A stretch of DNA of 21,787 nt. It comes from a virus. The stretch covers positions 1 to 21,787 of IMG/VR virus record IMGVR_UViG_3300042397_000920. One strand, 5' to 3'. Below the pieces are notes generated by a model. The model had not been told where the DNA came from. It did no database searches and saw nothing but the letters and a program-made list of their open reading frames with translations. Positions 341-19,448 of this stretch are shown one piece after another. Each line of letters starts with the position of its first letter. Positions within the stretch are counted from its first letter, which is position 1. The position numbers and the translations under genes are program-made.

Positions 341-1945
341 ATGCTCACTCCCGTCAACATCCAGTCAAAGCCCGGAATCAAACGGGATGGCACGAAGTTC
401 GAAGGTGCGAACTACGTTGACGGTCAGTGGGTGCGATTTCAGCGCGGACTGCCAAGAAAGATCGGCGGTTATCGTCAGATCAGCAACTTCGCCAACGGCA
501 TTATTCGCCAGTTCCACACGCAGGCCCTGAACAATTTCGTCTACACCCATATGGGCTATGGCGATGGCGTTCAGACGATGACGATTGACACGCTTGGCAA
601 CGCCAGTGCGCCTACGGATCGGACGCCTGCTGGCTATGTTGGTGGCGATGATTACATGTGGTCGTTCGATGCCATGAACGATGGCGCTGGTGGTGGCTCT
701 GTCATCATCGGCGTCTCCACAGACACGGCTCTTGATATTTCGAGCGCGGTGGCCAAGCAGGTCTACATCGGCAATATCTACGGCAGCAGCCCGCTTACCG
801 AGATCTCGGGCATTACGGCCTCTGGCGGCGTCTGCGTGCTGCATCCGTATTTGTTCGTATTCGGAACCAATGGCTACGTTCAGTGGTCTGATGCCAACGA
901 TCCGACGAACTTTACGACCGGCGATGCCGGTGATGCCTTTATCGCTGCGTCCAAGGTGGTTAAGGGCCTGCCACTGCGCGGCGGTGGTCAGTCGCCAGCC
1001 GGTCTATTCTGGACGCTCGATAGCGTCATCCGGGCCAGCTACACAGGCGGCGCGGACGTATTCTCGTTCGACACGATCAGCGCGTCCTCATCGATTCTCT
1101 CGTCGAACAGCGTCATCGAGTATGACGGCATCTATTACTGGTGCGGGATTGACCGATTCCTGATGTACAACGGCGTTGTGCGTGAGGTTCCCAATGAGCT
1201 GAACATCAACTATTTTTTCGACGGTCTGAACACGGAGCAGTCGAACAAGGTCTTCGCCTACAAGGTTCCCCGTTACGGCGAGATCTGGTGGTGTTATCCG
1301 CGTGGAACAGCGACGGAATGCACGCACGCTGTAATCTATAACGTCCGGGAAAATAATTGGTACGACACAGAGCTTCCGAATGCTGGGCGCTCTGCCGGCA
1401 TTTATGCTCAGGTGTTTCACTCCCCTATCATGGCTGGTATCGATCCAGTGCCGCAAGCCGAAGGGGCGTTCCGGATAACCGAGGCCAGCGACCTGCGCAT
1501 TACAGAAGCTGGAAATCAGCGCGTCGTGGACAATGGGCCTACCCAGTATAAAATCTGGCGTCATGAAGTTGGCAGCGATGAGATCGACGGCACGTCGATC
1601 AACGCGATTGAGAGCTACTTCGAAACTGGTGACATCAGCATGCTGTTGGCAGAGAGGCCGGCCAGCACTGCGATCCGCGTTGCCATAATTGAACCTGACT
1701 TTGTGCAGTCTGGGAATATGTCGGTTCAAATTACGGGCCGCATCAACGCCCGCGCACCTGAAGTCTCCTCGGAAGTAAGGTTCTTCCCGGCTGTGGCTAA
1801 CACGCCAGAAGAACAGGTGGTATTCTTCAAGGAGCAGCGCCGTGAGCTGCGCTTTAAGTTCTCCAGCAATACGGTCGGGGGAGACTACCAGATGGGTGAA
1901 GTGATTGCTCATATCGAATCCACTGACCATCGTTATCAGTCATGA
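341..1945 (+). CDS. P22 gp10-like packaged-DNA stabilisation / head-tail protein
   Basis: This 534-aa protein has the hallmark start of a large family of podovirus structural proteins: residues ~22-43 carry GANYVDGQWVRFQRGLPRKIGG. The middle has blocks I recognise from environmental phage relatives: HPYLFVFGTNGYVQWSD, VKGLPLRGGGQSPAGLFW and SVIEYDGIYYWCGIDRFLMY. The family is generally annotated as phage stabilisation protein (P22 gp10-like) or tail hub, a beta-rich protein that plugs the portal side after packaging and links to the tail. Near residue 377 a short repeat, xRITEA(S/G)(D/N), occurs twice with a third decayed copy. AAGGA at 330-334 precedes the ATG by 6 bases. The stop overlaps the next ATG (ATGA). 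Structural assignment is fairly firm; the exact position in the virion is inferred. Confidence 0.6.
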   Translation: MLTPVNIQSKPGIKRDGTKFEGANYVDGQWVRFQRGLPRKIGGYRQISNFANGIIRQFHTQALNNFVYTHMGYGDGVQTMTIDTLGNASAPTDRTPAGYVGGDDYMWSFDAMNDGAGGGSVIIGVSTDTALDISSAVAKQVYIGNIYGSSPLTEISGITASGGVCVLHPYLFVFGTNGYVQWSDANDPTNFTTGDAGDAFIAASKVVKGLPLRGGGQSPAGLFWTLDSVIRASYTGGADVFSFDTISASSSILSSNSVIEYDGIYYWCGIDRFLMYNGVVREVPNELNINYFFDGLNTEQSNKVFAYKVPRYGEIWWCYPRGTATECTHAVIYNVRENNWYDTELPNAGRSAGIYAQVFHSPIMAGIDPVPQAEGAFRITEASDLRITEAGNQRVVDNGPTQYKIWRHEVGSDEIDGTSINAIESYFETGDISMLLAERPASTAIRVAIIEPDFVQSGNMSVQITGRINARAPEVSSEVRFFPAVANTPEEQVVFFKEQRRELRFKFSSNTVGGDYQMGEVIAHIESTDHRYQS

Positions 1946-2179: not shown

Positions 2180-5100
2180 ATGTTTGAATTTGGTTCAATG
2201 CCGATGTTTGACATGGACTATTTCAATAGCCCCGCCTTTCAGCAGGCCATCGCTGCTGCGGTGGACCAGTATTCTCCGCCGCCTGTAGAGCCAACCTATT
2301 ACGCGCCGCCTCCGGTTGAGCCTATCTATCAGAACACTGCAGGCATCGGCAATATTCCTCAGTATACGTTTGATGACTATGCGGTCGTCGGCGGAGTAGG
2401 CAATCAATATATAGCGCCGCCGACATCGAATGCTCAGGCAGAGGCTGATGCTCAAGCTGCTGCCGCCGCTGAAGCCCAGCGGATAGCCGCTGCTCAGGCT
2501 GAAGCGCAGCGTATGGCGGCAGAGGCAGAGACACAGCGTATAGCTGCTGCTCAAGCCGAGGCCCAGCGGGTGGCAGCTGCTCAGGCCGAAGCTCAGCGTA
2601 TTGCCGCTGCCGAGGCGGAGGCTCAGCGCGTAGCTGCAGAACAGGCCGCTGCCGCCGCTGAAGCGCAGCGCGTAGCTGCAGCGCAGGCAGCCGCAGCACA
2701 GGCAGAAGCGCAGCGCGTGGCCGCAGCACAGGCTGCCGCCGCCGCAGAAGCGCAGCGCGTAGCTGAAGCGCAGGCCGCCGCAGAACGGGCAGCCGCAGAG
2801 CAAGCCGCAGCAGCCGAGGCAGCCTTCCAGAGACAGCAAACCGAGCTTAATCAAAGACGTGAGGCGGCAGCGCGTGCAGCTGCTGAGCGTGCGGCTCAGG
2901 AAAGAGCTTTGGCAGAGCAGGCAGCTGCTCAGGCTGCAATAGAAGCTCAGATTGCGGCGCAGGCTCAGGCAGAAGCTGCTGCTCAAGCGGAAGCGCAGCG
3001 CGTTGCTGCCGCTCAGGCGCAGGCCGAAGCAGCTGCACAGGCCCAAGCCGCTGAACAGGCTCGTATTCAAGCAGAAGCCCAGAGGGTCGCGGCAGAACAG
3101 GCTGAAGCTCAGCGCTTGGCTGCGCAGCAAGCGGAAGCTCAGCGCGCAGCAGAGGCGCAAGCAGAAGCACAGCGTGTCGCCGCAGCACAGGCAGAAGCCC
3201 AGAGAGTGGCCGCAGCACAGGCGGAAGCCCAGCGTGCAGCTGCAGCTCAGGCGGAAGCTCAGCGGGTGGCAGAGGCTCAGCGTTTGGCAGAGCAGCAGGC
3301 AGAGGCTCAGCGAGTAGCGGAAGCCCAGCGCATTGATGCAGAACGAGCTGAAGCTCAGCGGATTGTTGCAGAGCAGGAAGTTTTTGCGAGAGAAGAGGCT
3401 GAAAGAGTCGCCTTAGCCAACGCGCAAGCGCTCGAAGCTGCCGCTCAAAGAACTCAAAATGAAGCTATCGCTGCCCGCGCAGAGCAGGCGCGCATTGCTG
3501 CCGAGCGTGCGACCGCTGAGCGCGAAGCTGCAGAGCAGGCCCGTATCCAAGCAGAGGCAGCTGCTCAAGAGCAGGCGCGTATCCAAGCGGAAGCCGTTGC
3601 TCAAGAGCAAGCGCGAGTTCAGGCAGAAGCTGCAGCCCAAGAGCAGGCACGGATTCAGGCCGAGGCTGTTGCCCAAGAGCAGGCCCGCGTCCAAGCGGAG
3701 GCAGCTGCGGCAGTCACGCCGGAGCCGGAGATCTTTCGCGGGATCGGTCGTAACGTCGATGAGAACCTTTACGTTCCGGAAGTTCAGGTTCCTGAGCAGA
3801 TATACACACCAGAGCCACCAGCAAACATCCCGGCAGTAGAGTCCGTAGAACCATTGCCGGTCGAGGCCGCGCCTGTGGCCGGGATAGGCTCGCCGGTCGT
3901 CGCTGAACCAGCATACAGGGGAGCTGTGGAATCTGTTGAGCCTCTGCCTGTCGAGGCTGGACCTATCGCTGGTATTGGTTCTCCTGTCGTTGCCGAACCG
4001 GTGTATAGGGCTGCTGTAGAGTCCGTGGAGCCTATGCCTGCCGAGGTAGTACCCGTAGCTGGCATCGGCTCCCCTTCTGTTGCTGAGCCGGCTGCAGCTC
4101 CTACGGCTACTGAGGCCCCTGCGCCGCTGACATACGAAGAGCGAGAAGCCCGTAGGATCGCGACAAACACGCCGCCGAGTGGTGTATTCGTCGCTGCACC
4201 TACGGATAACCGAGGCAGCGCGACCGGCTTTAATATCGCGGGTCAGGGCACCAACGTATTCGAGTATTGGGGTGGCCCCGTCCGTGTGACAGATCGCAAT
4301 GGTAAAGTCCTGTTCAGCGGTGAAGGCGCAGAAGGCGCAGTCGCTGCTGCTCGGTTCGCGCAGAATCTAAGCGACACCAAGGGCAAGAACGCCTCGTGGG
4401 ACATCCAACAAGGCGAACGCACTATCAATCCCGATGGTTCAGTAGGGGAGATGCGCTGGATCTCAGGGCCCTCTGACGCCAAGGAAGGCATGGGCACGCT
4501 GGGTAGCCTAGCGGCATTCCTCTTGCCGATTGCCGCCGCGATTGCTGCTGGCCCCTTGGGCCTCGCGGCTCAAGTCGCTATGGGCGCTGCTGCAGGGGGC
4601 GTCGGCGCTGTGTTGTCGGGGAACGATCCTCTCAAGGCGGCGCTAATTGCCGGCATAAGCGCGGGCATTATGAATGTTTCCGGTGCCAACCAAGCCATAA
4701 GCGGCACGCTTAACAGTATTCTTGGCCCGGCTGCCACCCAAGCAGCCAATGAGGCTGTAAACCAAGCGGCTGCAGAGGTTACTGAGCAGATCCTCGTTAA
4801 TGGCGCAAGCCAAGCTGTTCAGGCTGCTGCAAGCGCCGCAGGGAACACATTGCTGTCTGGGGGCATAAGGACGGCCTTGGGCCTTACGTCTACTTCCCCG
4901 CCGCCGCTAGACCAGCCGCCTGTGGAAGAGCCTTCGATTGTAGTTACTTCCACTAGACCGGAAGCTGTCACTGGCGCTGATGTTGTCGCTGGTATTGGGG
5001 GTGGAGCGGCTGCCGACGCAGTAGCTGGCGATGTGGGATCTGACACTATTCAGGAGGAAGAGCCTCCTGTGGCGACAGTCACTGGTGCTAGACCAGAGGC

Positions 5101-6907
5101 TGTTACTGGCGCTGATGTCGTTACTGGTATTGGAAGTGGGGCTGCCGTCGATGTGATGACTCCGCCGCCGCCTGCGCCTGCTCCTGTGGAAGAGCCGCCT
5201 GCTGCGCCGCCCGCGCCGCCGCCTGTAGAAGAGCCTCCTGTGGCCATAGTTACCGGCGCTCGGCCAGAAGCCGTTGTTGGCGCTGATGTTGTTACTGGAA
5301 TTGGAAGCGGAGTTGTTGGCGACGTAGTGGCTGCGCAACCCACTCCGCCGCCGCCTGCGCCGCCGCTTGTAGAAGAATTGCCGCCTGCGCCGCCTCCGGT
5401 GGAAGAACCACCTGTGGCGACAGTTATTGGCGCTCGGCCAGAAGCTGTCACTGGCGCTGATATTATTTCTGGTATCGGAGGTGGAGTTGCTACTGATATA
5501 GTTTCCGCGCCGACGCCTGCACCGGCTCCTGTGGAGCAGCCGCCTATTGCGGAGGAAGAGCCGCCTGCGGTTGTAGTTACTGGCGCTAGGCCGGACATTG
5601 TCGCCGACGCTGTCGCTGGCATAGGTGGTATCGTTACCCCAGTTGAGATTCCGCCCTCCACGGTCGCTACTGAGCCTCCTTTCGAGCAGCCACCCGTTGC
5701 TGAAGAAGAACCCCCTATCGCGATAGTTACCGGCGCTAAGCCGGATGTCGTCGCCGATGCTGTTGCTGGCATAGGCGGTAGCGTTATTTCTGATATTGGA
5801 GGCGGAGTTGCCACCGACGTGGTGGCTGGCGACACGAGAACTGACACCCTTGAGGAAGAAGAAGAAGCGCCGATTGTGGTTACGGGACCAAGCGCTCCCC
5901 CTCTTTCTGCTCTGGATGTTACCAATGCCATAGGCGGCATCATTCCGGGCCTTATCCCGGGCACTGTCCCCGGCGCAGGAGCCTATGACCCCACAGAAAA
6001 CGTTATCATAAACACTGCGACGCCGGAGACCCCTGTGCCTGAGGTTACTGCTGGCATCGGCGGAGCTATTCCGGGCCTTGTTCCCGGCGCAGGCGTCTAT
6101 GATCCTACCGAAAATGTTATCATAAACACAGCGACGCCGGAGGCGACAGTCCCCGAGGAGCCGGGCTCTATACCTGTTATGCCACCCTTCACACCCATCC
6201 GGACTGACTTGGGCTTTACCGGGGTCCGTGACGGCGTGACGCAGCCTGAAGAAGACGGTATAGGTGTCAGGGACATCCTCGATGTCGCCAACGTAGCAAC
6301 TACCGTTCTTCCGATAGTCGGGGGTATTGTTGGTGGCGGCGGTGGTGGTGGTGGCGGGACGCTACCGCCGGACACTAGCGGCATTACATTCCGCCCCGGC
6401 ACGCTAAGGCCGACACTTCCCGGCGGTGGTATTGGTGGAGTCGGCGGCGCTGGCGGTCGCTATCCCTATACGCCAACGACGTATGGCCGCACTGGTGGAG
6501 ATCAGGAGACGGAGTATCTGTTCTTTACCCGCGATCCTGCGGCAGGGGCCGCTGCAGCGCCGGCCATAATCCCCGGTAAAAAAGAAGGCGGCGAAATCGA
6601 AGATGATATGGTAAAGCATCTCGTCGAATATCATAAGAACGGCGGCCATCATGGCCCCGGACAGGTGAAGGGCATCGGCAGCGGTCAGGAAGATAAGATC
6701 CCGGCATGGCTATCTGATGGCGAATATGTCTGGAGCGCGCAGGACGTTGCTGATCTTGGTGATGGTTCGACTGACGAAGGTGTGCGCCGCCTTGACAAAA
6801 TGCGGCGAATGGTGCGCCAGCAAGCTGGCCGTAAAGATGTAAAAAAGATTGCAAAACCCCAGAAGGGTATAGATAAAATGCTCAAAGCTGTTGGAGGACT
6901 GGCATAA
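2180..6907 (+). CDS. Giant modular repeat virion protein (1575 aa) with TonB-box-like repeats and C-terminal SDGEYV domain
   Basis: Layout: residues 1-80 hold Pro/Tyr-rich sequence with a doubled PPPVEPxY motif; ~84-511 are almost entirely Ala, Glu, Gln and Arg, a predicted long helix or coiled coil resembling TolA domain II; ~552-641 contain three 30-residue repeats; ~655-770 form a compact beta-rich segment (FEYWGGPVRVTDRNGKVLF); ~772-900 are Gly/Ala-rich and hydrophobic (LPIAAAIAAGPLGLAAQVAM, then NDPLKAALIAGISAGIM); ~915-1245 carry seven copies of an acid-Pro-VVTGARP motif in Pro-rich linkers; ~1250-1330 hold a doubled 41-residue unit; ~1385-1393 are nine glycines. The C-terminus has GKKEGGEI, GPGQVKGIGSGQEDKIP and SDGEYV (1512-1517), a module I associate with phage internal or tail proteins. 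GIG occurs 14 times along the chain. AAGGGG precedes the ATG. It could be a fibre, a needle or an ejected protein; the sequence does not decide. Confidence 0.6.
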   Translation: MFEFGSMPMFDMDYFNSPAFQQAIAAAVDQYSPPPVEPTYYAPPPVEPIYQNTAGIGNIPQYTFDDYAVVGGVGNQYIAPPTSNAQAEADAQAAAAAEAQRIAAAQAEAQRMAAEAETQRIAAAQAEAQRVAAAQAEAQRIAAAEAEAQRVAAEQAAAAAEAQRVAAAQAAAAQAEAQRVAAAQAAAAAEAQRVAEAQAAAERAAAEQAAAAEAAFQRQQTELNQRREAAARAAAERAAQERALAEQAAAQAAIEAQIAAQAQAEAAAQAEAQRVAAAQAQAEAAAQAQAAEQARIQAEAQRVAAEQAEAQRLAAQQAEAQRAAEAQAEAQRVAAAQAEAQRVAAAQAEAQRAAAAQAEAQRVAEAQRLAEQQAEAQRVAEAQRIDAERAEAQRIVAEQEVFAREEAERVALANAQALEAAAQRTQNEAIAARAEQARIAAERATAEREAAEQARIQAEAAAQEQARIQAEAVAQEQARVQAEAAAQEQARIQAEAVAQEQARVQAEAAAAVTPEPEIFRGIGRNVDENLYVPEVQVPEQIYTPEPPANIPAVESVEPLPVEAAPVAGIGSPVVAEPAYRGAVESVEPLPVEAGPIAGIGSPVVAEPVYRAAVESVEPMPAEVVPVAGIGSPSVAEPAAAPTATEAPAPLTYEEREARRIATNTPPSGVFVAAPTDNRGSATGFNIAGQGTNVFEYWGGPVRVTDRNGKVLFSGEGAEGAVAAARFAQNLSDTKGKNASWDIQQGERTINPDGSVGEMRWISGPSDAKEGMGTLGSLAAFLLPIAAAIAAGPLGLAAQVAMGAAAGGVGAVLSGNDPLKAALIAGISAGIMNVSGANQAISGTLNSILGPAATQAANEAVNQAAAEVTEQILVNGASQAVQAAASAAGNTLLSGGIRTALGLTSTSPPPLDQPPVEEPSIVVTSTRPEAVTGADVVAGIGGGAAADAVAGDVGSDTIQEEEPPVATVTGARPEAVTGADVVTGIGSGAAVDVMTPPPPAPAPVEEPPAAPPAPPPVEEPPVAIVTGARPEAVVGADVVTGIGSGVVGDVVAAQPTPPPPAPPLVEELPPAPPPVEEPPVATVIGARPEAVTGADIISGIGGGVATDIVSAPTPAPAPVEQPPIAEEEPPAVVVTGARPDIVADAVAGIGGIVTPVEIPPSTVATEPPFEQPPVAEEEPPIAIVTGAKPDVVADAVAGIGGSVISDIGGGVATDVVAGDTRTDTLEEEEEAPIVVTGPSAPPLSALDVTNAIGGIIPGLIPGTVPGAGAYDPTENVIINTATPETPVPEVTAGIGGAIPGLVPGAGVYDPTENVIINTATPEATVPEEPGSIPVMPPFTPIRTDLGFTGVRDGVTQPEEDGIGVRDILDVANVATTVLPIVGGIVGGGGGGGGGTLPPDTSGITFRPGTLRPTLPGGGIGGVGGAGGRYPYTPTTYGRTGGDQETEYLFFTRDPAAGAAAAPAIIPGKKEGGEIEDDMVKHLVEYHKNGGHHGPGQVKGIGSGQEDKIPAWLSDGEYVWSAQDVADLGDGSTDEGVRRLDKMRRMVRQQAGRKDVKKIAKPQKGIDKMLKAVGGLA
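2429..3712 (+). repeat. Ala/Glu/Gln/Arg helical repeat tract; last 180 bases are five 36-bp units
   Basis: Within the giant gene this tract encodes degenerate tandem copies of AEAQRVAAAQ and related 10-12 residue units. At 3533-3712 there are five consecutive 12-residue units of the form EQAR(I/V)QAEA(A/V)A(Q/A), one every 36 bases. Synonymous codons differ between copies (for example GAGCAGGCC, GAGCAGGCG, GAGCAAGCG), so the amino-acid pattern is kept while the DNA has diverged. That points to old repeats under protein-level selection rather than a recent slippage burst. Confidence 0.8.
3833..4102 (+). repeat. Three tandem 90-bp units encoding a 30-residue repeat
   Basis: Units start at 3833, 3923 and 4013. 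Each encodes AVESVEP(L/M)P(V/A)E, then (V/I)AGIGSP(V/S)VAEP, with the first two nearly identical in protein and the third decaying into an Ala/Pro-rich linker. They contribute three of the protein's 14 GIG tripeptides. Codon usage differs between copies. Confidence 0.85.
4922..5887 (+). repeat. Seven spaced repeats of an acid-Pro-VVTGARP (TonB-box-like) motif
   Basis: Core motifs begin at residues 920 (IVVTSTRPEA), 964 (VATVTGARPEA), 1021 (VAIVTGARPEA), 1079 (VATVIGARPEA), 1130 (AVVVTGARPD), 1180 (IAIVTGAKPD) and 1232 (IVVTGPSAP) of the giant protein. Each is preceded by a run of Glu residues and Pro. The first six are followed by a Val/Ala/Gly-rich GADVVxGIGxG-like stretch and the seventh by a shorter variant, LDVTNAIGG. 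Spacing between the conserved Thr positions is 45-58 residues, filled by Pro/Ala/Glu linkers. TonB-dependent receptors start their plug with a TonB box such as BtuB's DTLVVTANR or the common EIVVTGxR of alphaproteobacteria; the resemblance is visible, the function is not shown. Confidence 0.75.
5927..6157 (+). repeat. Two-copy repeat with YDPTENVIINTATPE
   Basis: Two adjacent units begin at 5927 and 6050. Each reads (A/G)IGG(I/A)IPGL(I/V)PG, then GAG(A/V)YDPTENVII, then NTATPE. The most conserved blocks lie at 5972-6028 and 6086-6142, where 18 of 19 residues are identical. The second copy lacks four residues of the Pro-Gly linker. Confidence 0.8.
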
Positions 6908-7836
6908 TGGCTGTCACACAAACCGTCACAGAGACCAAGCTGCCTCAATGGCTTGTTGATGCCTATACGAAGAGCATCGAGCGCGGCTATGAAGCCACTA
7001 CCGGTGACTATCAGCCTTATACTGCCGGCCCGCGTATTGCTGGATTCTCCCCGCAGGAGCAGCAGGCTTATCAGATGGTCTCCGCGAACGTCGGAAACTA
7101 TAAGCCGTACCTGCAAGCTGCTGGCAATTACATTGCAGGCGGCACGCAATCGTTCACCGATCCGGGCGTCGCGTCTAGGTTTATGAATCCATATACCCAG
7201 AACGTGGTCGCTGGGATTGGGGCGGCAGCTGGCCGCAACCTTTATGAGAATCTGCTGCCTCAGGTGAACCGCACATTCGTTGGCGGTGGCACGTTTGGTG
7301 GAAGCCGGAGCGCTGAGTTTACAGCCCGTGCCGTTCGCGATGCAAATGCTGCAGCTCTCTCGGCCCAGAACGAAGCTCTCCAGAAGGGCTACACTACCGG
7401 CATGGAGCAGTTCAACACTGAGGCCGGTCGCTACCTCACGGCAGCCGAGCAGGCGCAGGGCCTTGGTCGTGACGTTCAGAGCATGGCAGGCACGGACACG
7501 GCGGCGCTTGAGGCTGCTGGAGCAGCGCAGCGCGGGATGGATCAGAGGTCGCTTGATTTGCTGCGGGAAGATTTCGAAGCGCAGCGCGATTATGATTACA
7601 ATCAAGCACGTCGATTCGCGGAGTTTGTAGGAACGCCGAGCGCAGGCGGGTCAGGCACTATTTATAGGCAGGAGCCCGGTGTAAACAGAACAGCTTCGAC
7701 ACTCGGCGCTATTGCCACCGGGATTGGTGCGCTAGGTAACATCTTCGGCAAGAAGGACGGCGGCCCAATTACCGCCGATGGCAAGCGCAACATCAAGCAT
7801 CCGATGCACGGGCTTGGATGGCTGAAGGATAAATAA
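6907..7836 (+). CDS. Internal virion / DNA-ejection type protein, 309 aa
   Basis: The ATG overlaps the giant gene's stop (TAATG). The protein has an N-terminal aromatic region (GFSPQEQQAYQMV), then MNPYTQNVV, and a central GGGTFGGSRSAEFTARAVRD. The motif set of MNPYxQNVV plus (T/G)FGGSR is one I know from a common environmental podovirus protein located just before large ejection proteins. The middle third is Ala/Gln/Glu-rich helix (residues ~130-240). A Gly-rich hydrophobic stretch (ASTLGAIATGIGALGNIFG) precedes a C-terminus with GKKDGGPI, echoing GKKEGGEI in the giant protein. By position it may play the part of a T7 gp14-like, membrane-seeking ejection protein; that is inference. No catalytic motif is visible. 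Confidence 0.55.
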   Translation: MAVTQTVTETKLPQWLVDAYTKSIERGYEATTGDYQPYTAGPRIAGFSPQEQQAYQMVSANVGNYKPYLQAAGNYIAGGTQSFTDPGVASRFMNPYTQNVVAGIGAAAGRNLYENLLPQVNRTFVGGGTFGGSRSAEFTARAVRDANAAALSAQNEALQKGYTTGMEQFNTEAGRYLTAAEQAQGLGRDVQSMAGTDTAALEAAGAAQRGMDQRSLDLLREDFEAQRDYDYNQARRFAEFVGTPSAGGSGTIYRQEPGVNRTASTLGAIATGIGALGNIFGKKDGGPITADGKRNIKHPMHGLGWLKDK

Positions 7837-9364: not shown

Positions 9365-12300
9365 ATGCCCACTTATAAACCGGTTGACTTTGATCCATTC
9401 GCTCCTGCAGCGCCTTCTGGCAACGTCAGGACGAAACCTGTTGACTTTGATCCATTTGCAAAGCCCAAGCCGAAAAAGAAAAAAGAGGAGGAGCCGTTTT
9501 ACAGCGGGGTCATTCCTGTCCTCAAGCGCTCGTTCGGGCAAATTCTTACGGAAACCGGAAGGACGCTGGAGCAAATCTCCCCTTACCTTCCTCGCGGCCT
9601 TGTCAGTTCAAGCAGTTTGTTGCTGACCGGCAAACCCAGTGGCAGTGACTTTCTGGTAAAAGGTCTTGAGCGGGCTGGCACTTCTACGCGGAAGGCTGGC
9701 GAAAGAATTAGAGCTAAGGCTGAAGCAGAAAGACCTGCGGCAAGCATTGCGGAAGATGTCCGGCAAGCGAAATTTATCCGAGATACAACGCCCGGTACAG
9801 TATCTCAAGTCGTTTCCGGGGTTAGCCGTGGCCTAGCTATGCTACCGTCGTTCACTAATTACGATATTGGCGGCTTGTCACGCAATCTTCTACCGCAGAC
9901 CCCGCAAGAAGCGGCCCGTGAGTTAGCAGCAGTCCAGTCTAAATTCCAAACTGGGCGAGGCGCAATTGAGTTTGGTGCGGGCCAAGTCTTACCCACCCTG
10001 ATCCCTCTTGGCGGCGGCAAAATCGTACAGCTTGGTGGCCGCGCAGTACTGCCGCGCTTAGGTGTTGAGGTTTCTGAGGCGGCCCTTAACAAGGGGGTCC
10101 GCCGGGGCGTTGTCGCCACTGGCGCCGGAATGAATGCGGCAAGCGCTGGCAACCAAGCCTATGAAGATGTAATCGCCGCAGGCGGAAGTGAAGAAGAAGC
10201 TGACCGCGCATTCAAGACGGCGTTTGCTATTGCTTCGGCTGCATCCGGCGCTGCTTCGAGAATGCCCGGCGTTGAGCAATTGGTATTTGCCGACAAGCCA
10301 GTGCGAGGCGGGATTCTCCGCTCGGCTGGTCGCGCAGCTATTGGTGAGGCCCCGCAGGAATTTGTCGAAGAAGCCGGGACTCAGTTAGCGACGAACGTCG
10401 GCAAGCTCGGAACAGCAGCAGAGACGCCTGTCGGCGAAGATGTTCTGTCTTCCGGTCTTCTTGGTGCAATCGGTGGCGCGACAATCGCAGCCCCCATCGG
10501 CGGCCTTCAGGGTGCTTTTAACAGAGGTGCGCCTGAAGAAGGCGGCGCTCCACCAGCGCCAAGCGCGCCGCGCGCGCCGCGCACACCGCCACCGCCGGCA
10601 GACATGGCCGCTCTTGCCCAAGCCCTTGGTCCAGTGGGCGGCAAGATCACTCTGCAGGAACCGTCCGGGCCACAGGAATATACCTACCAAGGCTTCGACG
10701 AAGATGGCGGCGTCATTCTCGCAGACGCTGACGGCATAGTCTTCTCTGAAGATCCTGATCAGGTTCAGGCCGCGATCAAGGCTGGCGTTGTCGAGCCGGA
10801 AAGCGGTTTGGGCGGCATGGCCTTTGGCATGGATATTACTGAGGGACTGGATGAGGTGTTCGCACCGCCCCCGCCGCCTCCGCCTGCTACGCCTTTGCCT
10901 CCGCCTGCTGCACCTACTGTGCCCGTTACTCCGCTGCCCGCCGCCGCGCCGCCCGCTGCGCCCGTAGCGCCTACGCCTCTGCCTAGCGCACGGACAGCCG
11001 TGCTTGATAATGCCCGCGAAACCGTTAAAATTTTGCAGCAACGCAATCCTAATGCGTTGGATCTCGTGACGGACCTGCACGCCCAAGACTTTAGCGCCGC
11101 AGAAGTGGCGGATGCTACCGGCCTTAACATTGACACCGTTCGCGACGTTCGCTTGGGTCTTGGACTGCCCGATCAAGGTAAGGGCACCGCAGGAATAACA
11201 GGTGCGGGCGCGCCTGCAGACGCGCAGGAGCGTGCTGTATTCGAAGCATGGCGCGACAATTATAACCAGACAAAACAAGCTGCCGAGCCTGCCGCCCCGC
11301 CACCGCCGCCTGCTGCGCAGAGCGCTCGAAGGTGGCTCGAAGATCAGGATTTATCGGATTACACCCCTCGGCAGATCGCAGAAAATATAACCGCGTTTTC
11401 GAACGGCGAGGCCCGGCGTCGTGGGTATGAAAGCGGTACTGATGCGTATCGCATGTTCGTTGAAGGTGTAAGGGACACGAAGGCTGGCTTCGACCCTCTG
11501 CCAGACGATACGCTCCTCCAGATCGGCGGACAGGAAGTTCTTACGGCATATAAGGAAGCTCGACAGTGGGCGGCGGAAACCATCGCGGCTGCTGAGCCTG
11601 CGCAGCCTGAGCCTGCCCCTGAGCCCGTCATCGCCCCGCCTGCACCACCACGCGCTATAGGCAGGACCGCCCGCGCCACCACCCCGGCAAAGCGCGAGAA
11701 GGTCGATGTGCAGTATGAGCTGCAGGATTTGGACAATATCCGGTTTGCCGAGGGTGAGCTTCAGAACCGCGACCGCAGCCGACCGCAGACGCAGCAGTTC
11801 CTGCGTCGGTTCACCAGTGAGTTTGACCCAGAGGGTCTGGGCGAACACCCGGAAACGGATCGCGGCGCGCCAATAATCAACAAGGATAATGTTATCCTTA
11901 GCGGCAACGGTCGCACGCTGGGCCTTGAGGAAATTTACGAAAAGTATCCTGAGCAGGCCGAGGCTTACCGTGAGTTCCTGCGTGAGCAAGGCTACGACAT
12001 CGAGGGCATAGAGCGTCCAATTCTGGTGCGCCGTCTTATGTCTGACGTTGATGAGCGCAAGTTTGTTGTCGGCTCGAACGAGCCCGACGTAGCCGCGCTG
12101 TCCCCTCCAGAGCAGGCAGCGCAGGACGCAAAGGACATCCTGACCCCCGGAGTGTTATCGAAATACAAGGGTGGCGATTTAAACGCGGCACGAAACGACG
12201 CCTTTGTTTCGGCCTTTATTGCCGAGATGAGTCCGCAACAGCGTGAAAACGCAATGGATGACAAGGGTAATGTCAGCGCTCAGGCCCTGAAGCGGATTGA

Positions 12301-13924
12301 GAATGCGCTGCTCTACAAGGCTTATGGCGGCACTGGCCGTGCGTCTGATATATTTATCAGCAAGGCGATGGAGCGCACGGACGACGACACCAAGACGCTG
12401 ACTAACTCTTTGGTCGATGTGGCAAACGACTGGATCAAGTTCCAGCAGGCCATTAAGGATGGTGAGGTTGATAAGAAATACGACATCACCAACAAGCTGA
12501 TGGAATCAGTCGGCAAGGTATCGGACATCAAGGCCAGCGGGAACAGCGTGTCAGGTGAGCTTCGCAGCCCCGACATGGTTGAGCCAATGGATGAGTTCGT
12601 GAAGGACATCCTGATCGGCTTCCACGACGATAAGATCTCCCGCATTCTCAGCAAGAAGGCCATCGCCGAAAAACTGCGGGCCTATACTGAGATCGCCGCC
12701 AATCAGCAGGCTGAGCCTGACATGTTTGGGAAGGCAGAGACGCCATCTGCTCGTGAGATTTGGAATCGCGCCGCTGCGGGCGAGGGTGCCTCAGAGGCCG
12801 TCATGTTCTCCAGAGCTGAGAAGTCTTCGCAGGCGACAGCGAAAAGGCTGCGCAGCGGCATTGCGGCAGTGGCAGCCATAACCACGCCACCGGCAAGCGC
12901 GGCTGTTAACGACACCCCGATTGCGCCGAACAGCGCGCTCTATAAATCGCTTGAAAGCGGCGATACAAAGCAGGCCATCGCGCTAATCCAGAAGAGCAGC
13001 AAGGACAAGGAAGCGCGAAAGATTGCCGCCATCCTTGCTGAGAACGGCGTTGGTGAGCAGAAGACCGTGATCCTTGATCCGACCAAGGACTACAACAAAA
13101 CGGTAGAGACGCTCACAAAGAACGGGGCTACTGAGGACTCTATCTATCGTGTGACTACCGGCGATGTTCGCGGGCTGGTTTTCTCAACGCCGAGAGATAA
13201 GGGTATCTATCTCATCAAGAACAAAGACCGGGAATCCAACGGCGTCAATGAGCAGACGTTCTTGCATGAAACAATTCATGCTTACGTAAAGGCGCGCTGG
13301 TCTAGCATTGGAGTTTACACAGAGCGTAATCGCGCAGCCCTGCAAGAGCGCGGCCTATTTAACAAGGAGGTCGCGGCAGAGGTTCAGAAATTTAATGACA
13401 TGTGGGACAAGTTTTCCGACATTGTTATGAAGGAATACGATGGTGGCGCGGAGGTTCCCACCACCGTTATAAGCGCAGCAGAGTCGCCCAATGAGGCTCT
13501 TGCCTATATCCTGACCAACAAGGGCGTTCAGGACTACGCCAAGCGTATTGCAAAGGATGGTGACGGCTATCGCCTGATGAGCGAGGAAGAGGCCGGCAAG
13601 CGCTCTTGGTGGGATGATTTTGTGGACATGATCCGCAAGATATTTGGCTATGATAGGAGCGACCAGTTCTTCCAAGACTTCCTTGCTGCAGGCAACAGGA
13701 TACTGGTCGTTGGTGAAAAGGCAGAGACCGACTTCCGTGTGGCCGCGATAAACGAAGAGTCGGTTTCACCTCAGAAGGTAAACAATAACAGGCAGGCCAT
13801 GCAGGCCCTGCTGAACGGCACGCCTGACCAGATGCGGAATGCGGTTGCAAAAGCGCAGAGACCCTTCGATAAGAGCAATGAAGAAGCTGCGGACGTACAG
13901 AGTAAAAACAGAGGGTGTGACTGA
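9365..13924 (+). CDS. Polyvalent ejection protein: ddrB-type ParB-like domain plus HETIH metallopeptidase (1519 aa)
   Basis: AAGGG lies 7 bases before the ATG, and the gene starts 3 bases after the previous stop. Residues 5-33 hold two copies of KPVDFDPFA, then a Lys/Glu-rich stretch. Residues ~200-385 are helical, hydrophobic and Gly-rich with EAPQEFVEE (328-336). Pro-rich linkers (~392-412, ~497-545, ~638, ~742-760) separate small domains, one HTH-like (575-602). A ParB-superfamily domain of the ddrB type spans ~780-1120: VDVQYELQDLDNI, NRDRSRPQTQ, GAPIINKDNVILSGNGRTLG (GNGRT 847-851) and RPILVRRLMSDVD. A C-terminal zincin-like domain (~1225-1450) carries HETIH (1301-1305) and a downstream ESPNEALAY (1373-1381) that may supply the third ligand. 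This architecture matches polyvalent proteins such as P1 DarB relatives, which enter the cell with phage DNA. Its stop overlaps the next start (TGATG). Confidence 0.8.
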   Translation: MPTYKPVDFDPFAPAAPSGNVRTKPVDFDPFAKPKPKKKKEEEPFYSGVIPVLKRSFGQILTETGRTLEQISPYLPRGLVSSSSLLLTGKPSGSDFLVKGLERAGTSTRKAGERIRAKAEAERPAASIAEDVRQAKFIRDTTPGTVSQVVSGVSRGLAMLPSFTNYDIGGLSRNLLPQTPQEAARELAAVQSKFQTGRGAIEFGAGQVLPTLIPLGGGKIVQLGGRAVLPRLGVEVSEAALNKGVRRGVVATGAGMNAASAGNQAYEDVIAAGGSEEEADRAFKTAFAIASAASGAASRMPGVEQLVFADKPVRGGILRSAGRAAIGEAPQEFVEEAGTQLATNVGKLGTAAETPVGEDVLSSGLLGAIGGATIAAPIGGLQGAFNRGAPEEGGAPPAPSAPRAPRTPPPPADMAALAQALGPVGGKITLQEPSGPQEYTYQGFDEDGGVILADADGIVFSEDPDQVQAAIKAGVVEPESGLGGMAFGMDITEGLDEVFAPPPPPPPATPLPPPAAPTVPVTPLPAAAPPAAPVAPTPLPSARTAVLDNARETVKILQQRNPNALDLVTDLHAQDFSAAEVADATGLNIDTVRDVRLGLGLPDQGKGTAGITGAGAPADAQERAVFEAWRDNYNQTKQAAEPAAPPPPPAAQSARRWLEDQDLSDYTPRQIAENITAFSNGEARRRGYESGTDAYRMFVEGVRDTKAGFDPLPDDTLLQIGGQEVLTAYKEARQWAAETIAAAEPAQPEPAPEPVIAPPAPPRAIGRTARATTPAKREKVDVQYELQDLDNIRFAEGELQNRDRSRPQTQQFLRRFTSEFDPEGLGEHPETDRGAPIINKDNVILSGNGRTLGLEEIYEKYPEQAEAYREFLREQGYDIEGIERPILVRRLMSDVDERKFVVGSNEPDVAALSPPEQAAQDAKDILTPGVLSKYKGGDLNAARNDAFVSAFIAEMSPQQRENAMDDKGNVSAQALKRIENALLYKAYGGTGRASDIFISKAMERTDDDTKTLTNSLVDVANDWIKFQQAIKDGEVDKKYDITNKLMESVGKVSDIKASGNSVSGELRSPDMVEPMDEFVKDILIGFHDDKISRILSKKAIAEKLRAYTEIAANQQAEPDMFGKAETPSAREIWNRAAAGEGASEAVMFSRAEKSSQATAKRLRSGIAAVAAITTPPASAAVNDTPIAPNSALYKSLESGDTKQAIALIQKSSKDKEARKIAAILAENGVGEQKTVILDPTKDYNKTVETLTKNGATEDSIYRVTTGDVRGLVFSTPRDKGIYLIKNKDRESNGVNEQTFLHETIHAYVKARWSSIGVYTERNRAALQERGLFNKEVAAEVQKFNDMWDKFSDIVMKEYDGGAEVPTTVISAAESPNEALAYILTNKGVQDYAKRIAKDGDGYRLMSEEEAGKRSWWDDFVDMIRKIFGYDRSDQFFQDFLAAGNRILVVGEKAETDFRVAAINEESVSPQKVNNNRQAMQALLNGTPDQMRNAVAKAQRPFDKSNEEAADVQSKNRGCD
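9383..9456 (+). repeat. 17-bp direct repeat encoding VDFDPF at the N-terminus of the polyvalent protein
   Basis: GTTGACTTTGATCCATT occurs at 9383-9399 and 9440-9456, exactly 57 bases (19 codons) apart and in frame, so KPVDFDPFA appears twice. Flanking codons differ. The motif is short, acidic and aromatic and sits in a disordered-looking N-terminus, which suits a docking tag. Confidence 0.7.
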
Positions 13925-16900
13925 TGATAGGATCTAACTGCTCCCTTGATCTGGCAGAGGTCGCTCTAAATAATCCGCCAGCGCCACCAAAGTCTTTTGA
14001 TCCAATCGAGAACATCGCATCCGTTGTGTCATATGTTCGCCCGGCGACTGCCGTTGCCCGGAAAAGCAGGTACTTTGCGCGCCTGCACAAGGCGACGAAC
14101 GACAAGGTCAAGATGACCAGCCTTCTCATGTCGGACTATGAGGATTTGCTGCATGAGATGAACGAGCTTCCGCAGGAATCGAAGGACAGGCTCAACGCGG
14201 TCTTCGAGTATCTTCGTTTGTCCAAGACCGCCGTCCGCGATACCGGGCGCAACTTTGCCCTGAAGACTCGTGAGCTTCGCCGCGAAGGCGCTGACGGCAT
14301 CGAGCGGCGCTTTGCTCCTGAGCTTTCGAAGCCCGGCCAAACACTAAAGCTAAACGCTAATGAAACCCGCATACTTCACGAGGCGCGGGAGTATCTTGAA
14401 AGCCGCTACACGCTAAACGCCAAGTCTCAGTTGTCTGTCCTTGGCTATGATGGTGAGTACAGCCGCAAGGCTATAGAGGAAGGAGTTGAGGACGACGGGT
14501 TCCGCGACGATCTTCTGCGCCTGTTTGATGCCATCGAGTCGCAGCGTCTGACATCCTACATCCCGTTCATGCGCTCAGGCGATACGAAAGTCATTGTCTA
14601 TGGTCCCGATGGGACATTGGACAGCGGCGCTTTCTACATGATCGACAGCCTGCAATGGCTGCGGGATCTGGTTGGCAAGGGGATTGCGATGACTATCCCC
14701 GATCCCAGCAAAAAGAGGATCGCCGAGATCAAGGCAAAGTACCCGGAGAGCGAGGGCTATAGGGTAATCACAGACTCACGCGACATTCCCAATCCACAGG
14801 ACCGGCTGTCTATCGAAGACCTTCCTAATCTCGACAAGCTGTTAAGCCTGATGGATGCCAGATCCGGCGGCATTATCAAGGATTACTACGACCGGACGAT
14901 GGGTGGGATGTTCTCTGAGAGCAATCTTGGTGAGCTAACAGAAAATAACACCAAGATGATCGCCAAGGGGATCATTGCAGATCTTCCTAAGAGCGTGCGC
15001 TCTGTTCTGATGCAAGACCTCGCCGCTGGATTCATGAAGCAATCTCGCGACATTGCGGGCTATGATACGAACTTCACGGATCGGCTGCTTGATTACAATC
15101 GGATTGTGGCAACAACGGTTGCGCACCGGATGTACCGCAAGGAATATGCAGAGGCGTATGATGACCTTCAGCGTAATGTTAATAAATCTGAAAGGGAGTA
15201 TGCCAAGGAGTGGGACCAGTACGTCGACACCCCTGAGGGGTACATAGCGCGTGGGCTTAAAACAATTGGCTTTTTCAACTCCATGTGGGCAAGCGTGGCG
15301 TCATCATCGGTCAACGCCATGTCCGTCTGGACAGTCACCGCCCAGCAGATGACGGTTATGAAGGGCTCTGCCGGCCTTGATACTTACAAAATGGCAGTTC
15401 AGGTTATGGCTGGATTCCGTGGCAAGGTTGGCTATGGAATGCACGTCGATCCAAACGCGATCCCGGGTCTGACAGACGAAGAGCGAGATGCCCTTGTCCT
15501 TGCAAACAAGCGTGGGACTGTCCGGGCCCAGATGAACCCAGAGCTTATGGGCATTGATAGCTACGGCGCTATGAGTGACAAAGGGTCTGGGCTCAAGAAA
15601 ACAGCCAAGCGCTATTTCCAATACGGCTCCAGCGTCATCTCGGTCACGGAAGAGATGAACAAGGCAGCTGCGTTTATCGTGGCATATCGCTATGCCAAAG
15701 ATCCGAAGGCTCTGAAGAACTGGAAGGAAGCCTACGGCAAAAACGAACGCGCCAAGATCATCATCAAGGAGGGCTCGAATCCCTACGACGTTGCTGAATT
15801 CATGGTCGAGACGGCGACGTTCATGGGCGGTCAGATCGAGAAGCCGCCTATTATGCGTGGCGCTGGCGGCGTAATCCTGCAGTTCTCCCAATACCCTCTG
15901 CAGATTATGTTCCTGTTGGCTGAAAATCTGCGCTCTCAGGGTCCGCGTGGCAAAGTGGCCGCCATGTTTACCTTGATGATAATGTGGACTGTCTCTGGCC
16001 TGCTGTATGCAATTCCGTTTGGCGACGATGCGGTCAACTTCTTCCAGTGGATTTACAACATGAACAGCGAGGGAGCCAAGAAAGACTTCCGCACCGAGGC
16101 GCAGCTGATGCTGGCCGAGATGTTCGGCAATGGTGAGGCTGGACGCCGGGATGCAGAGATGCTCCTTCGCGGACCTTCGAGAGAGCTGCTTGGGCTAAAC
16201 TTCGGTGAGCGTGTTGGCTTCACGACACTTATACCTGAATTTGAAAGTGGGATTGCTATTGCTCCAGCCATATCGACGACCGTTTCTAAGTTCCAAGAAT
16301 ACCTTCAGCGTCGCTCGTCTGGCGTGCAGCCTGTAGCAGCTAATGTGGCGCTTGTGTCCCCCTTCATCGGCAAGGGGCCAACTGATCTCCTGAAGGGATT
16401 CGTGCAGTACCCACTGGAAGGATATAGGACTCGCTACGGTTCGCTCGTAATTGCGCCGGAGGATATGGGCTTTGTATCTGAGCAACTCCCACGCGCCACA
16501 GGATTTCAGTCAGCTAAAATTGCACGCGAGATGCAGGCGAGGCAGGCTGGAAAGATGATCACAGAATCAACGCGAAACGCAGAGCGCAAGAATACGCTGA
16601 TACTGGGTAAACTTCTGGCAGATGCGATCAAGGCCGAGGATGCCGGAGACAATGCCAAGGCAGAAAAGATCCTCGCTCAATTTGACAAAGAGATGCAGCT
16701 GGTAGCCGACAAGTATGAAAAAGAAATCAATGCGGGGAACTTTGATGGAGCCGTCAAACCGCCGACAGAGCAGACGCTAAAGAATGCCATGATGGCAGAA
16801 CTGTATCCGGGCATGAAGCTGGATAGGGTCGGCAATCTGAAGCGTGAGGCTTACATCGATGCCTACCGGACAATATTGGTAGATGAAGAGGAAGGCGACC

Positions 16901-16974
16901 TCATACCGGAGGAAGAGGAAGAAGAGTTTGTGGCAGAAGAGGAAGGCGACATTGAAGCCGCCTTCCCCGAATAA
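13924..16974 (+). CDS. Large polyvalent-associated protein, PLxRFG/LPD38-like (1016 aa)
   Basis: Translation is probably coupled to the polyvalent gene by a TGATG overlap; the local ribosome site (GAGGG) is weak. The protein is mainly helical. Residues ~210-226 (TSYIPFMRSGDTKVIVY) fit a degenerate PLxRFG motif (PFMRSG, 214-219), the signature of giant phage virion proteins of that name. Around 653-701, QFSQYPLQIMFLLAENLRS is followed by a hydrophobic helix (AAMFTLMIMWTVSGLLYAIP), matching the shape of large polyvalent protein-associated domain 38. The final ~30 residues are strongly acidic with a doubled EEEGD (DNA 16885-16899 and 16936-16950). In many phages these modules share one polypeptide with ParB/peptidase domains; here they are a separate gene. 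A membrane-contacting or translocation role in ejection is inferred. No nuclease or polymerase motif is seen. Confidence 0.6.
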   Translation: MIGSNCSLDLAEVALNNPPAPPKSFDPIENIASVVSYVRPATAVARKSRYFARLHKATNDKVKMTSLLMSDYEDLLHEMNELPQESKDRLNAVFEYLRLSKTAVRDTGRNFALKTRELRREGADGIERRFAPELSKPGQTLKLNANETRILHEAREYLESRYTLNAKSQLSVLGYDGEYSRKAIEEGVEDDGFRDDLLRLFDAIESQRLTSYIPFMRSGDTKVIVYGPDGTLDSGAFYMIDSLQWLRDLVGKGIAMTIPDPSKKRIAEIKAKYPESEGYRVITDSRDIPNPQDRLSIEDLPNLDKLLSLMDARSGGIIKDYYDRTMGGMFSESNLGELTENNTKMIAKGIIADLPKSVRSVLMQDLAAGFMKQSRDIAGYDTNFTDRLLDYNRIVATTVAHRMYRKEYAEAYDDLQRNVNKSEREYAKEWDQYVDTPEGYIARGLKTIGFFNSMWASVASSSVNAMSVWTVTAQQMTVMKGSAGLDTYKMAVQVMAGFRGKVGYGMHVDPNAIPGLTDEERDALVLANKRGTVRAQMNPELMGIDSYGAMSDKGSGLKKTAKRYFQYGSSVISVTEEMNKAAAFIVAYRYAKDPKALKNWKEAYGKNERAKIIIKEGSNPYDVAEFMVETATFMGGQIEKPPIMRGAGGVILQFSQYPLQIMFLLAENLRSQGPRGKVAAMFTLMIMWTVSGLLYAIPFGDDAVNFFQWIYNMNSEGAKKDFRTEAQLMLAEMFGNGEAGRRDAEMLLRGPSRELLGLNFGERVGFTTLIPEFESGIAIAPAISTTVSKFQEYLQRRSSGVQPVAANVALVSPFIGKGPTDLLKGFVQYPLEGYRTRYGSLVIAPEDMGFVSEQLPRATGFQSAKIAREMQARQAGKMITESTRNAERKNTLILGKLLADAIKAEDAGDNAKAEKILAQFDKEMQLVADKYEKEINAGNFDGAVKPPTEQTLKNAMMAELYPGMKLDRVGNLKREAYIDAYRTILVDEEEGDLIPEEEEEEFVAEEEGDIEAAFPE

Positions 16975-16975
16975 C

Positions 16976-17272
16976 TCAGAACGGCACGTCATCCCCATCG
17001 AGATCATGAGCCGGGCGCTGATAGGCGTTTGCCTTAGCCGCTGAGTGCTGCTGCTGGCCGCCGTTATCCTTCGGCTCATAGAGCGAGACGATGATGCTCT
17101 CACGGCCTTCGTTGCCGCCGACACCAGCTGGATTGAACGTGCGGTCGAGCAGGATGTAGGGGCCCTTGTCCCCTTCCATCATGACGCCGACGTTCTTGAA
17201 CCGGCCCTTGGTCTGGCCTTGGCTGTCTGTGTATTCGCCAACCTTGACGACGAGATCATACTTTTTACCCAT
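16976..17272 (-). CDS. ssb: SSB-like single-stranded DNA-binding protein, 98 aa
   Basis: The last gene of the leftward operon. It starts with an OB-fold-like beta pattern (KYDLVVKVGEYTD, GRFKNVGVMMEG, GPYILLDRTFNPAG, ESIIVSLYEP), then a Gln/Asn/Pro-rich flexible linker, and ends exactly in DGDDVPF. That tail is the classic SSB C-terminal acidic peptide (DDDIPF in E. coli), through which SSB recruits host repair and replication proteins. I know phage relatives with the same MxKxYxLxVKxGEYT start and a terminal DIPF. The ribosome site AGGAG overlaps the RecT stop codon, so the two are coupled. The likely role is to coat ssDNA for RecT annealing and replication. The OB-fold reading is inference from pattern; the tail is direct. 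Confidence 0.7.
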   Translation of the reverse strand: MGKKYDLVVKVGEYTDSQGQTKGRFKNVGVMMEGDKGPYILLDRTFNPAGVGGNEGRESIIVSLYEPKDNGGQQQHSAAKANAYQRPAHDLDGDDVPF

Positions 17273-17282
17273 TTATTTTCTC

Positions 17283-18320
17283 CTACTTGAAAAACTTCAT
17301 CAACTTGGTGGTGTTGCGCGGGGCCATCAGCTCTGCCTCTTCGAGCATCCCTTCGTGCAGCCCGCGCCATGCTTCGCGTTCGCCTTCGGACAGGCCGGCA
17401 ACGATCTCGCACGCTGCGTTCGCCCAGCTATCCCAATCGGTCATGCCTTCCTCGTCTTCGCCCGGCTCCAGCACATCGATGTGAAGCGGCGTCTTAGGCG
17501 CAGTCTTGGCGACAATCTTTTCCTCAAGGGTCTGCACCTGAGCTTCTGCCACAGGAACGTCGTCGAAGTCGGTGATGTCCATTTCGTCGCCGCTATATTC
17601 ATCAGCCTCGATGACACCCTCTGCGTAATTGTCGACCATCACTGCGCGCTGCGCCTCAGTGGACAAGGGCATATACTTGCTTGCCCGGCGGACCACAGTC
17701 TTGCGCCACATCTCAGCCTCATCGGTCTTCCAAGGGCCGACGATAACGCCGTCCTTGGTCTTGGATGATGAGCGGTTCCGGATCGAGAGGATCTCTTCCT
17801 TGCTCATGATCTCGAACTGCGTCTCGCCGTTCTTCAGCTTCCACACGCAGTATGCGCCGACCTTCTCACCGCGATCCGACAGGCCGTGCTTGTGAATGAT
17901 GCGCGACTCGATGCCTTCCTCGACCTCGAATACATCTCTCTCGTACACGAGACGGCTCTCGATCTTCAGGACTTCACCGGACTGCAGCGCCAGCTTCATC
18001 AGTCCCTTATAGCGTGGGCGGAACTGGGCGACGTTGCGCTTCAGACGGCCATCCCAGACCTTGAGGATGTCAGCCTCGGCCATGCTCTTATTAAGCGACA
18101 GGCCAAGCTCTGCGGCGCTCAGGCACGCCTTCAGCAGTGATGCGCGGTCACAGTCCAGCAAGTCCATGTTGTCAGCGACGGCTGCCACCACGATGGCTTG
18201 GAACTTATCGACCGTCATGGCCTGCGGGAGAAGACTGCGGAGATGCCCTTCGCGCATCGCCAGCTCCTGCTTGAACCGATCCATCGGCTTTGCAGGAACG
18301 ATGTCATTACCTGTTGTCAT
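17283..18320 (-). CDS. recT: RecT-family single-strand annealing protein
   Basis: 345 residues; the RecT core spans ~10-235. Visible family signatures are SLLKACLSAAELGLSLN (61-77), VAQFRPRYKGLMKLAL (97-112), AYCVWKLKNG (156-165) and PWKTDEAEMWRKTVVRRASK (196-215). RecT anneals complementary ssDNA and works with a partner 5'-3' exonuclease, here the YqaJ-type gene upstream. The chain is longer than E. coli RecT (269 aa) because of a C-terminal extension (~236-345): an acidic stretch with DITDFDDVPV (248-257), then a Trp-containing helical module (TDWDSWANAACEIVAGLSE). The start ATG lies 14 bases inside the preceding small gene, with GAGGAA upstream. Confidence in the family is high; the role of the extension is unknown. 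Confidence 0.92.
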   Translation of the reverse strand: MTTGNDIVPAKPMDRFKQELAMREGHLRSLLPQAMTVDKFQAIVVAAVADNMDLLDCDRASLLKACLSAAELGLSLNKSMAEADILKVWDGRLKRNVAQFRPRYKGLMKLALQSGEVLKIESRLVYERDVFEVEEGIESRIIHKHGLSDRGEKVGAYCVWKLKNGETQFEIMSKEEILSIRNRSSSKTKDGVIVGPWKTDEAEMWRKTVVRRASKYMPLSTEAQRAVMVDNYAEGVIEADEYSGDEMDITDFDDVPVAEAQVQTLEEKIVAKTAPKTPLHIDVLEPGEDEEGMTDWDSWANAACEIVAGLSEGEREAWRGLHEGMLEEAELMAPRNTTKLMKFFK

Positions 18321-18471
18321 TCTTCATTTCCTCTTCAAGATCTTCAATCATCAACTCAATGGCACGCTCGACGGTGGCTCGAAGCGTAGGCTTCAGGGGA
18401 TGCTTGGCCGCGACTGAGCGCAGCCTTGCCAACAGATTCCTGTCCACCCGCATCATAACAATATCTTTCAT
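18307..18471 (-). CDS. Ribbon-helix-helix-like small protein, 54 aa, between exonuclease and RecT
   Basis: The frame begins with ATG at 18471-18469, sharing one base with the exonuclease stop (TGATG), and ends with TAA at 18307-18309, overlapping the RecT start by 14 bases. The product reads MKDIVMMRVDRNLLARLRSV, then AAKHPLKPTLRATVERAIEL and MIEDLEEEMKNDNR. The pattern of an N-terminal beta strand (IVMMRVD), a first helix (RNLLARLRSVAAKH), a loop with Thr and Arg, and a second helix (ATVERAIELMIEDLEEE) is that of an Arc/MetJ-type ribbon-helix-helix protein. These bind DNA as dimers and often repress their own operon. The tight overlaps on both sides support it as a real gene. DNA targets are unknown; a site near 19441-19461 is one candidate. 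Confidence 0.75.
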   Translation of the reverse strand: MKDIVMMRVDRNLLARLRSVAAKHPLKPTLRATVERAIELMIEDLEEEMKNDNR

Positions 18472-19406: not shown

Positions 19407-19423
19407 TTATATTCTCCGGTTAT

Positions 19424-19441
19424 GGCCGTATCCAGTCGGCC
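19424..19441 (-). other. 5'-leader hairpin upstream of the exonuclease gene
   Basis: GGCCG (19424-19428) and CGGCC (19437-19441) form a perfect 5-bp stem with an 8-base loop. On the transcribed strand it falls just downstream of the promoter-like site and 6 bases before the GGAG ribosome site. It would form at or near the mRNA 5' end. It could stabilise the transcript or modulate ribosome access. Confidence 0.4.
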
Positions 19442-19448
19442 TACACAT

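Follow-up and report, generated by a model that had tools for sequence, protein, structure and literature searches.

Resistance of tonB mutants to phage T1 is part of how TonB became known, and the TonB-dependent phages described so far are believed to work through receptors. The locus described here raises the question of whether a phage may carry TonB boxes of its own. The window (the whole stretch of DNA analyzed, a virus record of 21.8 kb) encodes a giant virion-operon protein with a row of short motifs that a preliminary description had likened to TonB boxes. Judged from sequence, we consider it slightly better than an even bet (a probability of roughly 0.55) that this virion protein docks on host TonB during genome entry via boxes in its linker.

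The giant protein consists, in this order, of the AEAQR coil, the 30-aa repeats, the alpha/beta domain, the hydrophobic segment, the Pro/Glu-rich linker with the motifs and the C-terminal domain (Table 1). The Ala/Gly hydrophobic segment was found to be conserved among relatives of the protein. PHROG tape-measure families matched the C-terminal domain in 26 of 26 aligned members; the AlphaFold model of this domain was poor. The model of the part preceding the linker, itself only partly confident, gave no significant fold match in the PDB. A Pfam search of the giant protein returned no family and no TonB C-terminal domain, and a search of the window record for the plug domain PF07715 gave no match. 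In the window and in Caulobacter phage RW alike, the gene is flanked by a stabilisation-like and a DNA-ejection-like gene. From its sequence, the giant protein is most likely a virion protein of the tape-measure/ejection type, and its tape-measure-type C-terminus and ejection-gene neighbourhood suggest that it is probably ejected into the periplasm.

Table 1. Features of the giant protein and of its gene neighbours in the window.
Feature	Position	Strand	Basis or score
Tail-stabilisation-like virion structural protein	341..1945	+	phrog_3287, E 9e-37; 49% identity to RW protein
Giant virion-operon protein, 1575 aa	2180..6907	+	Open frame, ATG to stop; carries the motif array
N-terminal coiled AEAQR(V/I)AA repeats	2471..3708	+	Tandem repeat arrays; translation
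30-aa Pro/Glu repeats, VESVEPLPVEAAPVAGIGSPVVAEP	3836..4091	+	Tandem repeats, period 90
Small alpha/beta domain (about residues 660-767) ahead of the hydrophobic segment	4157..4480	+	AlphaFold pLDDT about 70-88
Ala/Gly-rich hydrophobic helical segment, possibly membrane-active	4481..4903	+	Sequence; low-confidence helices in model
Box-like EQILVNGAS, residues 869-877, before array and helix	4784..4810	+	14.3 bits, phage-family matrix; 2.3 bits, receptor matrix
Box 1, PSIVVTSTR	4931..4957	+	15.8 bits, receptor matrix; good TonB-box match
Box 2, PVATVTGAR	5066..5092	+	-0.6 bits, receptor matrix; eroded
Box 3, PVAIVTGAR	5237..5263	+	0.6 bits, receptor matrix; eroded
Box 4, PVATVIGAR	5411..5437	+	-4.7 bits, receptor matrix; eroded
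Box 5, PAVVVTGAR	5564..5590	+	11.9 bits, receptor matrix; good TonB-box match
Box 6, PIAIVTGAK	5714..5740	+	3.4 bits, receptor matrix; weak
Box 7, APIVVTGPS	5867..5893	+	8.9 bits, receptor matrix; 13.5 bits, family matrix; good match
C-terminal domain, tape-measure type (...GSGQEDKIPAWLSDGEYVWSAQDV...)	6587..6904	+	PHROG tape-measure families
DNA ejection protein-like gene	6907..7836	+	phrog_4287, E 2e-15; RW neighbour matches same family

Translation and a pattern count confirmed the seven repeats reported for residues 920-1240 at spacings of 45-58 residues; the motifs were located at residues 918-1238, with spacings of 45, 57, 58, 51, 50, and 51. The nine-residue boxes of Table 1 are followed by Pro in copies 1-6 and by Ala-Pro in copy 7. 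The pattern T-G-A-(R/K)-P that had been assigned to them fits copies 2, 3, 5, and 6 and fails in copies 1 (TSTRP), 4 (VIGARP), and 7 (TGPSAP). A regular expression close to the full pattern of the preliminary description matched six times, compared to 0.06 times on average when the stretch was shuffled. With the receptor matrix described below, the receptors themselves have a median score of 14.8 bits, and only three of the seven window motifs, copies 1, 5, and 7 (residues 918, 1129, and 1230), scored convincingly as TonB boxes, the remaining four being eroded copies of the PPVATVTGAR type; the matrix derives mostly from alphaproteobacterial genomes, which may not be the host group of the window phage. 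Counted in the window array alone, matches to the receptor matrix were marginally above shuffles and close to chance, with the count starting at residue 920 and thereby dropping the first two residues of copy 1. The box peptides EEPSIVVTSTRP and EEEPPAVVVTGARP are from this array. The linker around the boxes (18% Pro, 16% Val, and 16% Ala) is rich in Pro, Glu, and Gly, its positions flanking the boxes are unconserved, and it is probably disordered. The window by itself is a weak case, and the strong evidence comes from its relatives.

In the window (4922-6130), and likewise in many relatives, the boxes are interleaved with another short motif, (A/T)GIGG or TGIGSG. Examples are PEVSGIGGAIEPIVVTGTK in contig L002, ATTGIGG in L004, and TTAGIGG in L026.

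The receptor set comprised 94 TonB-dependent receptors, mostly alphaproteobacterial, of which the 50 residues ahead of the plug were used. Unsupervised motif discovery yielded a nine-column receptor matrix with the motif [ED]E[IV]VVT[AG]xR, found in 78 of the 94 receptors. Scanning viral contigs with the C-terminal part of the giant protein identified 45 relatives, and the window-clade set consisted of 33 non-redundant linkers, the window and RW included. A first motif search, over too wide a region and with a single-site objective, returned PxTYGRxGG, a motif of a folded domain that is conserved by descent, and the same search on the receptors gave overlapping registers. The later search covered linkers alone and accepted only motifs that recur in the same protein. 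Since this choice was made after seeing the data, a second clade and matrix-free tests were added.

Discovery of repeated motifs in the 33 linkers gave [GEND][EDP]-I-V-V-[TN]-[AG]-x-[RKP] at 120 distinct sites, with at least two sites in 28 of the proteins, and this motif matches the receptor box found by the same method. Shuffled linkers gave weaker and unrelated motifs (objective 155-190 compared to 332 for the real linkers). Sites of at least 10 bits with the receptor matrix numbered 45, over 50 times the mean of 0.6 in shuffles. The sites, whether in one protein or in related ones, are not independent of each other. The same number was compared to 300 column-permuted receptor matrices, in which order was broken and composition kept, and these gave at most 13 sites. 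The column-by-column agreement of the phage and receptor matrices was equalled in 3 of 20000 column permutations. The likeness to TonB boxes claimed in the preliminary description thus stands at the level of the family, far above shuffled and column-permuted controls, and does not extend to all seven window copies.

Among isolate phages, relatives of the giant protein were found in Caulobacter phage RW and sister phages. With the RW C-terminus as query, 80 loci were identified, 50 of them non-redundant. The linker motif of this clade was [DNE][EDP]IVV[TSN][GA]x[RK], with 132 distinct sites and two or more sites in 38 of the 50 proteins; examples are DEIVVTGQR, EEIIVTGNR, DLIKVTGSR, and GEIVVSASR. 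Receptor-type sites numbered 67 compared to 1.2 in shuffles, and none of 200 permutations reached as many. Because of their shared ancestry the window and RW clades are not fully independent tests. The DEIVVTPSQ box of phage RW scored 15.8 bits. Ahead of the helix, some RW-clade proteins have a box-like motif EQI(V/I)VTGLS that is the counterpart of EQILVNGAS in the window. At the threshold used, 7 of the 46 window-clade proteins and 16 of the 80 in the RW clade had no box, some of these proteins being truncated. The array is hence missing from part of each clade and cannot be essential to all members.

Further scans concerned the spread and the host of these phages. A DNA pattern scan of viral contigs for paired boxes gave no match, nor did a comparison of the linker sequences with isolate phages. 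RW is the named relative with a known host, Caulobacter vibrioides, and a control genome of C. vibrioides contains receptor plug domains. A host scan of genome contigs returned mostly distant phage-type C-termini and one contig of a close relative (L049). This is a phage contig with 96% identity in the C-terminal domain, binned into an alphaproteobacterial MAG from a pond; its placement may be a hint of the host or a binning error and does not fix the host.

For the matrix-free check every hydrophobic triplet [IVLM][IVLMT][VI] was taken without reference to any motif. An acid was found in either of the two positions before the triplet in 67-71% of distinct linker cases, compared to 15-25% in shuffled linkers and 81% in receptor N-termini. 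The corresponding values were 49-54, 17-19, and 68% for T/S right after the triplet, 79-82, 27-31, and 81% for A/G in the position following T/S, and 21-41, 7-13, and 60% for R/K at column 9. Acid, T/S, and A/G occurred together in 27-33% of linker triplets, compared to 1-2.5% of those in the remaining ORFs of these contigs. This agrees with the information profile of the window clade, in which core columns 2-7 carried 1-2.5 bits and flanking linker positions under 0.4 bit, a profile that is partly given by construction since the sites were picked by the matrix. The expectation that homologous phages conserve the core relative to the linkers was therefore borne out, IVVT(A/G) being kept and the linkers not.

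Outside the two clades the signal faded. Proteins with a tape-measure C-terminus from elsewhere (Pelagibacter, Rhodococcus, a cyanophage, and a gammaproteobacterial lake phage) were not above shuffles, and most other phage proteins checked that have the same C-terminal domain lack boxes. The distant relative MW202545 has GEVEITGQR (14.9 bits), and strong sites were found in 3 of 17 further outgroup proteins; at least one outgroup row looks like a divergent RW relative.

The main rival to docking on TonB is an assembly role inside the virion. The boxes would then be internal motifs, short beta-strands adding to the edge strand of a virion partner (the portal, the tail hub or another ejection protein) or to each other, and they would resemble TonB boxes since both are beta-addition peptides. 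The gene does sit among virion genes, several copies would fit an oligomeric partner, and the EQI(V/L)V(T/N)G motif at the edge of the hydrophobic helical segment, present in some members of both clades, may be structural; an IVVT-type strand can also bind partners besides TonB. Such a role gives no reason, however, for the column-by-column match to the receptor signature (acid, T/S, A/G, and R/K at column 9) or for the scarcity of box-like triplets in the remaining ORFs of these contigs, and we consider it unlikely.

Saturation of TonB by the array is possible. That the boxes serve as decoys with no role in entry, a periplasmic array saturating TonB, shutting TonB-dependent receptors and blocking competing TonB-dependent phages or colicins, appears quite improbable to us. 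It would fit the many boxes per molecule and a TonB-box consensus pentapeptide listed in the references of PMC7142613 as an inhibitor of TonB-dependent processes in vivo (Tuckman and Osburne, 1992), but the protein from one virion would probably amount to few copies, and a separately encoded, membrane-expressed version was not seen. Chance or drift in a low-complexity linker rich in Val, Thr, Gly, Ala, Pro, and Glu has in its favour the Pro/Val/Ala-heavy window linker with its near-chance match count, but it is contradicted at the family level, where shuffled, column-permuted, and same-contig controls fail to reproduce the signal across 83 non-redundant proteins; we regard it as hardly credible, and it could survive only for individual eroded copies.

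Two further roles were rejected as unlikely. Adsorption by receptor mimicry finds neither a plug nor a barrel in the protein, and the gene does not code for an adsorption or fibre protein. Because the C-terminus matches tape-measure proteins and a DNA-ejection gene adjoins, it is more plausible that the protein meets TonB once ejected into the periplasm than that it adsorbs to receptors. Mimicry of TonB itself, raised in the preliminary description, is not supported, as no TonB domain was found in the giant protein.

Docking on TonB would proceed as follows. The motif, its repetition and conservation, its match to the receptor box and the ejection-type neighbourhood are observed features. Going by its C-terminal domain and neighbourhood, the giant protein would exit the virion before the DNA or together with it and enter the periplasm, where the Ala/Gly hydrophobic segment may associate with a membrane. 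The IVVT(A/G) boxes would then join the C-terminal domain of TonB as an added beta-strand, as the boxes of receptors and colicins do. More speculatively, docking on TonB-ExbB-ExbD could anchor the ejected complex at the inner membrane, or the proton-motive force could pull it across, and multiple boxes might raise avidity and allow re-gripping. The wider proposal, that in two related podovirus-like clades, one with a Caulobacter isolate, TonB-box arrays on an ejected protein dock on and are pulled by the TonB-ExbB-ExbD motor during genome entry, so that the virus supplies its own box and does not rely on a TonB-dependent receptor, is put forward tentatively.

The boxes share their nine-column pattern (acid, hydrophobic triplet, T, A/G, x, R/K) with the TonB boxes of receptors, both the alphaproteobacterial EEIVVTGSR type and those of E. 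coli BtuB, FepA, and FhuA. TonB-dependent receptors have one box before a plug and barrel, whereas the phage virion protein has several boxes and neither plug nor barrel. TonB boxes work by beta-augmentation and tolerate side-chain changes, strand structure being more important (PMC11658791), and degenerate copies could therefore still bind weakly. The phage protein also resembles the imported bacteriocins colicin M and pyocin S2, which bring along a TonB box of their own, situated within or beside an unstructured segment (PMC11658791, PMC10994204); in pyocin S2 a disordered segment precedes the box and the protein is pulled by TonB (PMC10994204). The bacteriocin box is located near the N-terminus, whereas the phage protein is much larger, carries its array in the middle and has no toxin domain that was found.

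The closest named likeness is GP066c of Caulobacter phage RW (proposed Riverwalkvirus: RW, RLK, KcrB, and GB2A), with a homologous C-terminal domain and gene order and, as in the window protein, boxes downstream of the hydrophobic segment (DEIVVTPSQ and DPVVVNPPQ). It differs in being 580 aa long without the long N-terminal coil, and its annotation goes no further than hypothetical or tape measure. Podophage ejection proteins (T7 gp14/15/16 and P22 gp7/16/20) and siphophage tape-measure proteins share the virion-operon position, the tape-measure-type C-terminus and the hydrophobic segment (PMC8954989). A review of podophage ejection proteins makes no mention of TonB. A literature search for a TonB box in a phage virion or ejection protein, of partial coverage and weak as evidence, returned no such report; the only paper found that joins TonB box and tape measure deals with the FhuA TonB box in T5 infection.

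If docking on TonB is correct, it would provide an energy source and an inner-membrane anchor for DNA entry of short-tailed phages, and a role for unannotated tape-measure-like proteins of many metagenomic virus contigs. The idea is readily testable, since phage RW grows on Caulobacter vibrioides, a model organism of the laboratory.

Some other features of these contigs were observed. In MW202545 (L048), two adjoining virion proteins (16059-19220) have an extremely high cysteine content that is unusual for virion proteins, and one of them contains a run of CCSCCCSCCCS repeats. The internal-virion part of the window operon encodes a 1519-aa protein (9365-13924) that combines a ddrB-like domain of the ParB superfamily (PF18763) with an HExxH-like stretch (LHETIHAY) nearer its C-terminus. 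On the minus strand of the window (16976-21505) an opposing cluster encodes a RecT-family recombinase, a YqaJ-like recombinase and a DEAD/ResIII helicase.
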